Positions 33,860 to 37,600 of a DNA stretch of 64,000 nt are shown piece after piece. The stretch comes from Burhinus oedicnemus. Its lineage: Eukaryota; Chordata; Aves; Charadriiformes; Burhinidae. The stretch spans positions 522,921 to 586,920 of the forward strand of contig VFFE01006813.1 of NCBI GenBank assembly GCA_008921705.1. The letters run 5' to 3'. Within the stretch, counting starts at the first letter, position 1; every line of letters starts with the position of its first letter. The notes beneath the pieces were generated by a model. It saw nothing but the letters and a program-made list of their open reading frames with translations. It was not told the origin of the DNA and ran no database searches. The position numbers and the translations under genes were made by a program.

Positions 33860-34648
33860 GCATTCCACTATTTTATTAACAAAATTCTTCACAACCTGAA
33901 GGAATTTATTTCCAAACAGTATATTGACCAATATTTACACAACCCCTCCAAAAATCTGGCATCCTGTTAGTCAAGATTTTCTCTAATTTTCCTAGAGGTG
34001 TCAAATGGATGGACAAATAGACGTGGAACTAAAATGTATCCTCAGAGGAAACTTGAGAAATATGATGGTGTTGAGAATATTCGATGCTGCTCGCTTCAAC
34101 TCCTGAATCTCTCAAAACTTCTTTTCCACCTTTACCCCAGTTAGAAGCAAAAGCGTCCATGTTTTCTAAATCTTGCTTTAGAGTTATACTTGGCTTTGAA
34201 GTTTTTCTGATGACATCTGAAGTTGAACTGAAAAACATTATAAGTTTACTTCCGCTGTCTTTGTGTTCACTTTGCCCAGTGGGATGGCAATCCTCTTTGG
34301 GATGTGGCTGTATTTCCTCTTCTGTCAGTTCCTGGATCAGCGTTAGTGGTGTCTTCTTGAAGTAAAATGCCTTGTGAAGCAGGTGAGGTATAATCCAAAG
34401 CAAAAAGCAGGTACAATAGTGGATTTCAGAGACCTGTATTTCTGACAGCCTTTCCCATAATTTCACTGCTTCTATTTAATTCACTCACCAGTGCAAACAT
34501 TCTATCTATTTCAGCCTTAAAGTTTATCCAGTCCTCCAGGCTAACGTTATAATTCTTTCTGAAGTCATACGCGTTTTCATGTAGTCTGTACATGGATTCA
34601 AGTTCTGGCCAGTTTGTATCCTCATGGAGGTGTAGCGGTTGGGGCAGG
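33860..34648 (-). other. SULF2: SULF2 3'UTR (standard isoform; 3' end approximate)
   Basis: This is non-coding for the standard isoform but contains the alternative frame described separately. Minus-strand AATAAA hexamers occur at 33905-33910 (followed by a GU-rich stretch) and at 33873-33878, with another at 33589-33594. The true cleavage site cannot be chosen from sequence. Confidence 0.5.
33905..33910 (-). terminator. SULF2: Candidate SULF2 polyadenylation signal
   Basis: Minus-strand AATAAA in ggAAATAAATTCC, followed within 20-40 nt by GGTTGTG...TTTTGTT, a plausible GU-rich downstream element. Alternatives are at 33873-33878 and 33589-33594. Confidence 0.4.
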
Positions 34649-34679
34649 TTAGCCCTCCCATCCTTCCCACAGTTGTCCT
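34029..34679 (-). CDS. Hypothetical alternative SULF2 C-terminal frame (exon A 34489-34679; exon B 34029-34370)
   Basis: If the 31-nt exon is skipped, the g left by the preceding exon joins AG at 34679-34678 (Glu) and opens an 84-residue frame to 34426: EDNCGKDGRANLPQPLHLHE, then WPELESMYRLHENAYDF, RKNYNVSLEDWINF and EIDRMFAL. Its composition looks coding (three Trp/Tyr-rich helical segments, charged and hydrophobic residues alternating). After FAL there is a strong donor, GTGAGT, at 34488. An acceptor at 34371 (cttcacaag) lies 118 nt on and is phase-matched to a second frame of 113 residues (AFYFKKTPLTLIQEL to SQVSSEDTF, stop at 34029). I do not know a function. It may be a real isoform, a former coding region, or chance. 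Confidence 0.35.
34649..34679 (-). CDS. SULF2: SULF2 last coding exon, GQLWEGWEG and stop
   Basis: The minus-strand acceptor is tttattttaaag. With the carried ag it reads R-GQLWEGWEG, then TAA at 34649-34651. This is the conserved SULF1/SULF2 terminus. The exon continues as the 3'UTR, in which a second long open frame overlaps this one. Confidence 0.95.
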
Positions 34680-37600
34680 CTTTAAAATAAAACAAACACG
34701 GTTAAGCATGTAACATTCTAGTAGGAAGTAGTTAGAGATATATTTTTAACAGTTCCATGCAGAGAAAAACAATTTAAACACTCTGGACCACCTACAAAAA
34801 TATAGCAGGTATAGCACAGAAACAATCTAACTAACTATGTTCAGAACCTCAACATGTACAAAACTTGTAGCTCATTAATTCTAGCTTCATTTTGGTTCTA
34901 AAGCCAGTGAAATATTACCATTAAATAAGCAAATCCTCTTGGGGGAGTTGAGAAAGCTAGACTGTGCCTGTTAAGGTACTTGTACATATTTTTTCACTGC
35001 ACAATTTGAGAACACCTTAGGATTTTTAATGAGCTGAAGTGTCAACCCTCTGTTTAAGGGGAGACAGAGAGACAGGAACTGGCATGGCAAAGGTAGTATT
35101 TTTCATGTCTTTCTTTAAATTTGTATCTCACCTTTGGGCTCTAGCAAGTTGAGAACTGAATGTCATCTTCAAGTTTTAAAGGGTAGTTAAGTAAGCTAAA
35201 CACAATCTTAGATTTTTAGTATAATGTCACAATAAAGCATACAGATCTGTCTTGTAGTCTACTTTCTGTTCTAACTTGCTTTTTTTTCCTCACAGCACAT
35301 CAGGCTGTGGTTGGATAAATAGCAAGAAAATACATGATATTCTCTCTACTCTGAGAAATTACAATCAGTTTTGTTCTTTCTGGATGGTGTGAGAGACCAC
35401 TAGGTAGCTGCTGCAAGTTCAAATTTAAACAAAACCAATATAATCATCTCTAACTTTTAATAGCTGTTAACCATAACTAGTTTCTTCCACTGAGCATCCA
35501 CCTTTGCTCAAGTTTGAAATTGCCTTGACCTTAATGCGCCTAGGTTCCCAGAAAACATGTACCAAGAGGTTTTGTACAGCAGCAGTTGTCTGTAATGATG
35601 GCAGTATCATATTTCTTGCATAATTTAGAGGACTTCCCACTTAAGCGTTCCACAAGAATAGATGATGGTGTTAAAAAAGGTGCTACGTGCGAAAAGAGAA
35701 GTGAAGGAAATAAAGGTAAGCAAAAGCTTAATGCTTTTCGTGAACTGCTCCCAACTCACAGTGACTTGGCAGATGATGGTCTCTTCACATCTGGCCACTT
35801 TCGACGCTGAAACTGCCTAATTTTCAAGCAGCAAAAGGAGAAAAAAAGTTAACCATCACCAAGAAAACCACCAGCATTACAGTCTGAAAGATGAGGAAGG
35901 AGAAGAGTTTAGCCTGAATTTTGACTACAAAGATTAGAATGTGCCATAACATTGAAACAGAAATAGCTCCAGTGTTTCAAAGTAACTGGGATGGAAAGAT
36001 CTTGCAAACACCATTCCAGGCGGTGTCTGTCCATGTGTGGTTCCCAATCCCACACTCTTAACTCCTTTATCACGAAGGTAGTACTTTAATAATAATTTAT
36101 CTATTTTTTTAAAAACGTACCTGTACTGCTCATAGCTTCCATCTTTAAGTCCTAGATGGGGAAAAATTAACAATGTTACTAACTACTGCCTGCAAAAGAG
36201 TAAGGTATCAGGTAAGGCACAATTTAAAAAAAGACCTAAGAATATTACCAGATTAATGTGTATTGCCATACATGTTAACTGGAGCTGTTATTTTTGTGTT
36301 AAATCCCTTATTCTAGGTAAAATGGGTTGTAAATTGGGATAGATAGCTTTGAAGCTTTTCTGTAAATATCCTTCAGTGGTGTATTTAAATGCCAGAACCT
36401 GTTGATTTCAAAACGTACGGCTCTGTGTGGTGCATGTACAAAGACGTGAAATAATATTTTGGGCTTTGGTAGTCTCAAGTAGATAGTATTTTTGGGGTGG
36501 GGGTCTTCAAGCTCTAAAGGTTATGACTTTTTTAAAATAGTATTTCTTATGTCGACTTAATTGTACTAAGGGGTATAAGAAATGCAATTTAAAAAGAAGA
36601 AATACAAGTAACTGTACCTTTTGGTTTGCTATCAAACATTTAAAAAAAAATAATCATAAGCAGTATAAAAACCAGATCCATTGAGTAGACCCAGAGAAAA
36701 CTTAATGGATAGGACCAACCTAGAAAAAGAGTAAAGGCCCATTTTGCTTTTTGGAATTTAAATCCATTGTTACAAGAGCACATCTTTTGGTAGCATAATA
36801 GATCCCTTCTTAGATGTGCTGTTATTTCACAACTACCTTGGAGTAACACAGGTAGGGGAACACTGATCAGCTTAAGCATTAATGTCCTTTTTGAAGTTAA
36901 AGTTATTTTTAAGCCAGTTGACCACAATGCCGCATGGACTGCACTGTCTCTAAAGAAGTGTTTCTAAAAATTGTGCCTTCAGTTGGAATGCTGAAACTCA
37001 ACTGCCAAAGGCTGTGCAGTCTCCATCCTTGCAGGTTTTCAAGATGGGACCGGATAAAGCCCCGAGTAACCTGGTCTGACCTCACAGCTGCGCCTGTGTT
37101 GAGCAGAACTTTGGACAAGATGAACTCCAGAAGTCCCTTCCAACTTGAATTGTCCTGTGAGTCTATGAACTTGCAAGTGGCTATTAGGGTATTCTTTCCC
37201 TCTTTCATCAGTTTTATTCCTTCCTCATCTCCTTCCCCTGCATCTCAGCAACACCCCTCACTATACTATTTAAGTATTCTTCATTCTTCATTTAAGAAAC
37301 ATCACATAACACAAATTGAACAAACACAAAAATCTGAGCATGCAGCCATCAGCCTCAGCAGGACATTACTAGTATAAATAAATACTAAAATCCTTTTGAC
37401 TGATACACATAACTCCCCCATTTCCTTTGGGGAGTTTTTGAGCGTAATAGGAGAGGCACTTACCCAGATCCATGTTCCTCGTTCTTGGGTTGCATTGTTT
37501 ATACCCTTTGCAGCTTCTTAGTTCCATGAGCTGGACGTGCAGTTGATTGAGAACGTCTCTATCTAGTGTATTCACTGCATTAATTAGCTGCAATAAACAG

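Follow-up and report, generated by a model that had tools for sequence, protein, structure and literature searches.

SULF1 and SULF2 edit heparan sulphate, tuning Wnt, FGF and other signals. Here we describe the 3' end of a gene which we take to be SULF2, judging from Sulf-1 relatives among database matches and from known SULF2 sequence. It lies on the minus strand of a 64,000-nucleotide (nt) stretch of Burhinus oedicnemus DNA (assembly GCA_008921705.1, contig VFFE01006813.1, positions 522,921 to 586,920), hereafter the window, to whose numbering coordinates refer. We consider it fairly probable that the last exon of this gene holds, out of frame with the normal ending, a second frame homologous to the long tail of SULF1, that skipping of a 31-nt exon together with a 57-nt exon would bring the protein into this frame, and that this tail is decaying in SULF2. 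Within the second frame we distinguish block 1, a predicted intron, and block 2.

The closest described system is the long isoform of SULF1, represented by models of about 1120 amino acids named 'extracellular sulfatase Sulf-1 isoform X1'. A wider kind, the splicing-accessible coding 3' untranslated region (3'UTR), is presented by Preussner et al. (2020, PMC7392665), with the criterion of a frame change that adds at least 20 residues, of which the annotated 3'UTR encodes 10 or more. In the case of U2af26 described there two exons are skipped, and the methods list a reverse transcription PCR (RT-PCR) primer pair on either side of the mouse Sulf1 penultimate exon. A passage of the review PMC3890690 gives SULF1 and SULF2 lengths of 870-875 residues and mentions a shorter quail form as the sole variant. 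The coding-3'UTR kind is already known, and so is the SULF1 case, which has database entries and a brief mention in print; new are the SULF2 member, its requirement for two skipped exons, and its apparent fading. Literature searches on SULF1/SULF2 splicing, isoforms and C-terminus returned titles and abstracts with no description of a SULF2 tail. An earlier note, made from the letters of the window alone, had called the extension undescribed. As far as our searches went, this is correct for SULF2, but not for SULF1, with its database isoforms and the primer pair in PMC7392665.

The SULF2 second frame and the SULF1 long isoform have in common a homologous block 1, the exon phases, a dual-coded start (GQLWxGWEG in one frame, EDxxGxDG in the other), and a switch by omission of an exon of 3n+1 nt. 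They differ in that SULF1 of the same genome needs neither a second skipped exon nor an intron after the DRMFAL motif, whereas SULF2 needs the former and, to add block 2, would need the latter. The SULF1 tail runs uninterrupted in a single last exon, whereas the SULF2 frame meets a stop 20 codons beyond DRMFAL, which removal of the predicted 118-nt intron would avoid; the 213-residue continuation of SULF1 is not detectably related to block 2. With the splicing-accessible coding 3'UTRs of PMC7392665, SULF2 shares a skipped frame-changing exon near the end that opens a last-exon frame past the normal stop, and its size lies within the criterion, as skipping both exons adds 84 residues if the last exon is unspliced and 177 if the predicted intron is removed. 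The tails described there are proline-enriched and possibly evolved independently, whereas the SULF tail is common to paralogues and not proline-rich (3.6% proline in SULF1, 4.5% in SULF2). A strict screen for a penultimate exon not divisible by three would retain SULF1 (34 nt) and pass over SULF2, in which the penultimate exon has 57 nt and the 31-nt exon lies one upstream. Since two exons are also needed in U2af26, SULF2 works like the coding-3'UTR kind rather than fitting the strict screen. QSulf1B, the quail Sulf1 variant, shares with this locus the alternative splicing of an avian Sulf and differs in being a shorter protein, with no C-terminal tail mentioned in the passage of PMC3890690 that describes it.

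Exon structure and the second frame of SULF2

Joining ten exons gave the C-terminal portion of the protein. The 124-nt exon (37464-37587) ends in phase 1, with one spare G before gtaagt. It is followed by the frame-changing 31-nt microexon (36121-36151; LKDGSYEQYR), flanked by ag and gtacgt and left out in the long-tail form, and then, ahead of the last exon, by an in-frame exon of 57 nt (35760-35816; QFQRRKWPDVKRPSSAKSL), which the long-tail form would have to omit too. The last exon starts with AGGACAAC at 34679, and its normal frame ends in GQLWEGWEG and TAA (34649-34651), in a segment (34649-34679) that is dual-coded with the second frame.

Four exon combinations were translated, with and without the microexon and with and without the 57-nt exon. 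Inclusion of the microexon leads to GQLWEGWEG whether the 57-nt exon is in or out, because the latter is in frame. If the 57-nt exon is kept and the microexon skipped, the protein continues into MDLGSFSVESGQM and a stop, which comes after GSFSVESGQM. When both small exons are skipped, EDNCGKDGRANLPQPLHLHEDTNWPELESMYRLHENAYDFRKNYNVSLEDWINFKAEIDRMFAL is obtained, followed by 20 further residues to the stop. Skipping of the microexon alone thus gives a quick stop, and both small exons must go to reach the second frame, which is opened by G+AG and extends over 84 residues (EDNCGKDG...NTGL) to the stop at 34426-34428. The earlier note had correctly placed the 124-nt exon with its one leftover base, the frame-changing exon at exactly 36121-36151, and the GQLWEGWEG ending of microexon-containing forms. 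Its claim that omission of the microexon creates a glutamate codon and opens an 84-residue frame was right as to frame and position, but the 57-nt exon had been missed.

Block 1 of the second tail (34489-34679; EDNCGKDG...DRMFAL) is the part homologous to SULF1. Directly after DRMFAL there is a strong donor site, GCACTG/gtgagt, followed 118 nt on by an acceptor that permits an in-phase join to further open sequence. The intron predicted from these signals (34371-34488; GTGAGT...CACAAG) would remove the stop of the unspliced frame. Block 2 (34029-34370), tentatively assigned to the tail, comprises 113 further codons (AFYFKKTPL...SSEDTF) with a TAG stop at 34029-34031, and an AATAAA (33905-33910) is situated about 120 nt past this stop. 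Using a simple matrix built from textbook frequencies, the donor after DRMFAL scored 10.28, the top value in 34679-33900, compared with 8.80, 9.57 and 6.77 for the three upstream donors of the exon model; its acceptor has 80% pyrimidines over the scored stretch. Donor, intron and block 2 fall within the interval covered by the earlier note and were absent from its reasoning.

From base composition, and before allowing for several frames, a given frame would be open by chance over 84 codons with P about 0.0035, and over 113 codons with P about 0.0005. A stronger argument than frame length is the in-frame match to SULF1 described below. In codon composition, block 1 agrees with the other exons of SULF2 (P 0.001, the best among the three frames), and the SULF1 tail does likewise (0 of 1,000 shuffles). 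A chance open frame was rejected for block 1 by this codon signal together with the SULF1 homology.

The SULF1 tail in the same genome

A search of the same genome with the SULF2 tail peptide found, apart from two pieces of the query, a single further site at G000:C930:36687-36884 (E 1.2e-11). This locus is SULF1, because five exon stretches that are 60-88% identical to exons of SULF2 lie upstream of it. Here too, the preceding exon is in phase 1 and a microexon, of 34 nt, is frame-changing; the last exon starts with AGGACAGTTATGG, and the normal end is GQLWDGWEG. The second frame of SULF1 has 274 codons before its stop, which is close to an AATAAA; base composition gives P about 3e-8 for this length, and it was reached by 0 of 20,000 shuffles.

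Aligned in frame, the two tails are identical in 30 of 61 codons, with one gap of three codons. Their differences are distributed over codon positions as 13, 20 and 22, a lack of third-position concentration that counts against a simple coding signature. Random reassignment of the 55 substitutions (5,000 trials) reached the in-frame score in 0.04% of trials from SULF2 to SULF1 and in 0.02% in reverse, and the scores of the other frames in 20% and 5.5%. Since the normal frame also uses the first codons, the permutation was repeated on codons 14-61 alone (10,000 trials), where the in-frame score was reached in 1 and 0 trials and those of the other frames in 22% and 33%. Judged from these comparisons, the tail is likely to descend from before the SULF1/SULF2 duplication. 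The resemblance to SULF1, put forward in the earlier note as unverified, is thereby real in this genome as well as in databases; translation of SULF1 in the matching frame, proposed there as a check, yielded the 274-codon frame and the in-frame homology, and the idea that the second frame is or was coding gained support for 34489-34679.

With regard to silent change, amino acids unchanged between SULF1 and SULF2 in 34489-34679 have a changed codon in 6 of 30 cases, compared with 64 of 129 in ordinary exon stretches (P 0.004). Without the dual-coded first codons the count is 6 of 21 (P 0.10), and dual coding explains much of the difference between tail and exons.

Long SULF1 proteins in databases

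The SULF1-tail query retrieved 80 proteins among 858 candidates; those with a named source belong to mammals, frogs, birds, turtles and a snake, and are labelled uncharacterised or hypothetical. A chimeric query, for which the tail region was scored, placed 142 proteins of 7,990 scored in the full-length range; the figures below are from the best 120 of these 142. Those with names are called Sulf-1, sulfatase 1, arylsulfatase or extracellular sulfatase, and the rest are hypothetical or unnamed. The exon-skipped junction is present in 117 of the 120, in which the tail comes directly after PRPKGLET-like sequence and the microexon is missing. Among them is Latimeria (P0175), so that the SULF1 tail ranges from birds to the coelacanth. 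Most of the long SULF1 proteins are automatic gene models. P0191, a frame of 1,115 residues with the skipped junction, comes from an unannotated contig of 4,251 nt, too short for introns and therefore presumably RNA-derived. The microexon can accordingly be seen as a frame switch in SULF1, as the earlier note had proposed for SULF2, for which the switch is a prediction and has to be corrected to two skipped exons.

The remaining three proteins, P0156, P0187 and P0193, join the tail in other ways. P0193 and P0187, which are SULF1 proteins of giant panda and marmoset, arrive at the tail frame either by lacking the 124-nt-type exon and translating the microexon in its alternative frame, or by lacking several exons. 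The SULF1 tail has also been annotated as separate uncharacterised genes (P0002, P0043), such as LOC104639323 in Balearica and LOC109731101 in Microcebus, which are apparently mis-split SULF1 ends.

Substitutions and frame integrity in SULF2 homologues

Homologues of the SULF2 tail were found in 13 proteins among 23 candidates. They were found because the frame is open, hence frame retention in them proves little. Substitutions were examined in block 1 on the 7 of the 13 that cover its start, and in block 2 on the 4 that are open to its end. In block 1, 44 changes have a mean BLOSUM score of -0.52 compared with -0.37 expected from random single-base changes (P 0.73), and the 57 changes in block 2 are likewise random-like (P 0.52). 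The same test, with P0156 excluded, gave P 0.010 for block 1 and 0.0003 for the rest of the SULF1 tail in 48 birds. Block 1 of SULF1 gave P 0.001 on 7 random birds and P 0.005 on 20 non-birds, and 7 proteins from unannotated contigs gave 0.0043 (block 1) and 0.0030 (rest). By these values the SULF1 tail is under protein-level constraint, and the SULF2 tail not measurably so. The earlier note, right about homology and frame switching, is too hopeful as to present use in SULF2, where no sign of purifying selection was obtained in a test that detects it in SULF1.

Block 1 is intact in the window and in the 7 homologues covering its start. When mapped to the window, P0202, P0209 and P0210 leave the block 1 frame inside 34371-34488, as expected for non-coding sequence between coding pieces, and P0213 changes frame at the donor or just before it. 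Among 9 homologues reading across the donor site, VS stands after FAL or FAP in 8, compatible with GTGAGT; the exception is P0213. Eight homologues are informative for block 2, which keeps its frame as far as the stop in P0203, P0207, P0211 and P0212, with an inner stretch in shifted frame in P0212. Breaks in block 2 occur in P0202, P0210 and P0214, and in P0213 it is shortened. The proteins P0204 and P0206 begin with MEATSST and MEAMSST, and the microexon of the window, read in its other frame and joined to the last exon, gives MEAMSSTEDN. Such starts imply mRNAs that lack the 57-nt exon, but do not lack the microexon.

At block 1 residues 34, 37 and 55 the window has H, A and K, and a differing residue, mostly N, V and E, is found in 7, 6 and 7 of the 7 SULF2 homologues.

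A probable inherited ending and its alternatives

Taken together, the SULF genes probably inherited a splice-accessible ending that is maintained in SULF1 and fading in SULF2. The frame switch would be older than the duplication of the two genes; skipping of both small exons would bring the SULF2 protein onto the second frame, and in living birds this may happen rarely or not at all. If the tail were used, the intron at 34371-34488 would be removed and block 2 added.

Several observations weigh against this reading. No SULF2-named long protein is present among the best 120 of the 142 matches. Block 2 carries no codon signal (P 0.18), and its similarity to the SULF1 continuation is not significant (local score 37, P 0.11); in the downstream nucleotide comparison the score was 13, with a shuffle maximum of 16. 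Homology of block 2 to the SULF1 continuation was rejected on these values, and since block 2 has neither codon signal nor significant similarity, it is perhaps, together with the intron, outside the tail altogether. The inferred decay is also open to objection, as the SULF2 test is small and ascertained, with 7 and 4 homologues chosen by their open frame. Moreover, changes in the 7 homologues are rarer at positions shared with SULF1 (21/146) than elsewhere (58/210, P 0.004), and this avoidance, along with the coding-like codons of block 1, speaks for some past or remaining constraint.

The same avoidance and codon signal would also fit if the second tail of SULF2 were a live, regulated isoform, made and selected, with or without block 2, in tissues where both small exons are skipped. 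Both blocks are open in the window, the best donor of the last-exon region coincides precisely with the boundary where the homologous block ends, and mRNAs without the 57-nt exon are implied by P0204 and P0206. We nevertheless find a live isoform doubtful, given the random-like amino-acid changes in both blocks, the damage to block 2 in 4 of 8 informative homologues, and the lack of a long protein named SULF2 in the set just mentioned. Random-like changes and broken block 2 frames, as well as the need to skip two exons, would suit the opposite explanation, a pure fossil that encoded protein in the gene ancestral to SULF1 and SULF2 and is translated in no bird now. This we regard as unlikely: block 1 is intact here and in 7 homologues (themselves ascertained by the open frame), the strong donor and the codon signal persist, and an event this old should show more erosion, unless the loss was recent.

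Two other explanations dispense with exon skipping or with protein. Ribosomes might enter the tail frame by a +1 frameshift close to the normal stop, or by initiation at the ATG in the other frame of the microexon, from which the tail frame is indeed open in microexon-containing mRNAs (MEAMSSTEDN in SULF2, MEEAMIHTEDSYG in SULF1) and at which many of the 80 SULF1-tail proteins start. Such starts are, however, a gene-caller choice on microexon-containing mRNAs, the ATG follows from normal-frame codons, and the skipped junction is carried by nearly all of the long SULF1 proteins listed (117/120), which makes this route very improbable. Hardly any probability at all is left for conservation of the block as an RNA element, for instance in splicing control. 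The retention of codons at unchanged amino acids, higher than in ordinary exons (6/30 vs 64/129 changed), would agree with it, but this difference loses significance once the dual-coded start is left out, a single frame carries the similarity (P 0.0001 or less, compared with 0.22 and 0.33 for the others), and amino-acid changes in the SULF1 tail are conservative.

A second SULF1 ending of about 270 acidic residues, found from birds to the coelacanth, and the homologous stretch in SULF2 mean that part of the so-called 3'UTR is or was protein code. Constructs and antibodies based on the short end would consequently miss the second ending. The pair also allows a splice-accessible tail that is maintained to be compared directly with one that seems to be fading.

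Removal of the predicted intron from a short-tail mRNA would leave an exon junction 160 nt past the stop at 34649-34651. Nonsense-mediated decay is expected, by an established rule, for a junction that far beyond a stop, and an intron in this position could couple tail choice to decay. We offer as speculation, and think it rather improbable, that vertebrate SULFs have had two endings since before the SULF1/SULF2 split, toggled by a small frame-changing exon, and that the bird SULF2 version is still live, its intron exposing the short-tail and not the long-tail mRNA to nonsense-mediated decay. If this were true, one splicing decision would set both tail type and enzyme amount.

Composition and predicted structure of the tails

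Tails of the SULF1 relatives are acidic, with a net charge of -12 to -35 (mean -24) in 111 of the 120 proteins listed; the 9 left out of the count have a tail start or length outside the pattern. They contain on average about four N-glycosylation motifs. The SULF2 tail is less acidic (31 D+E, 19 K+R), and the part of SULF2 taken as the hydrophilic domain has 61 K+R vs 34 D+E.

Alignment A1 comprised 48 of the 120 proteins, and A2 comprised 51 of the 80 SULF1-type and 2 of the 13 SULF2-type proteins. In the AlphaFold model of the whole SULF1-long protein, the mean predicted local distance difference test value (pLDDT) was 31.3, which is unusable, and for the SULF1 tail alone (P0003 and 52 others) it was 46.5, mostly of low confidence. 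One long helix was predicted over the conserved DW..YL..VDR.FAL, with best 10-residue means of 72 and 77, and the remainder of the tail is suggested to be mostly disordered. The step from sequence to function is the weakest in the proposed scheme: block 1 may form this moderately predicted helix, after which, in SULF1, a disordered acidic tail would oppose the basic heparan-sulphate-binding domain. As a guess from these models and charges, the acidic tail could counteract or shield that domain.

No Pfam or NCBIfam domain was detected in the tail at curated cut-off. A match of P0003 to phage GpR (E 0.0064) is below the cut-off of that model and was taken as chance, a search for a solved structure gave a single weak choline-sulfatase match (E 0.062) that was set aside, and 9 pattern matches in viral contigs included no relative.

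Minor features of the microexon region

Neural microexons of the SRRM4 type are up to about 27-30 nt long and have a UGC close upstream of the acceptor. The small exons described here are of 31 nt (SULF2) and 34 nt (SULF1), and TGC is absent from the 30 nt upstream in both genes, placing them outside this type. No internal repeats were found within 36900-37300. Between the 124-nt exon and the microexon, the intron at about 37020-37190 has sequence that resembles an avian CR1 element and is a candidate for one.

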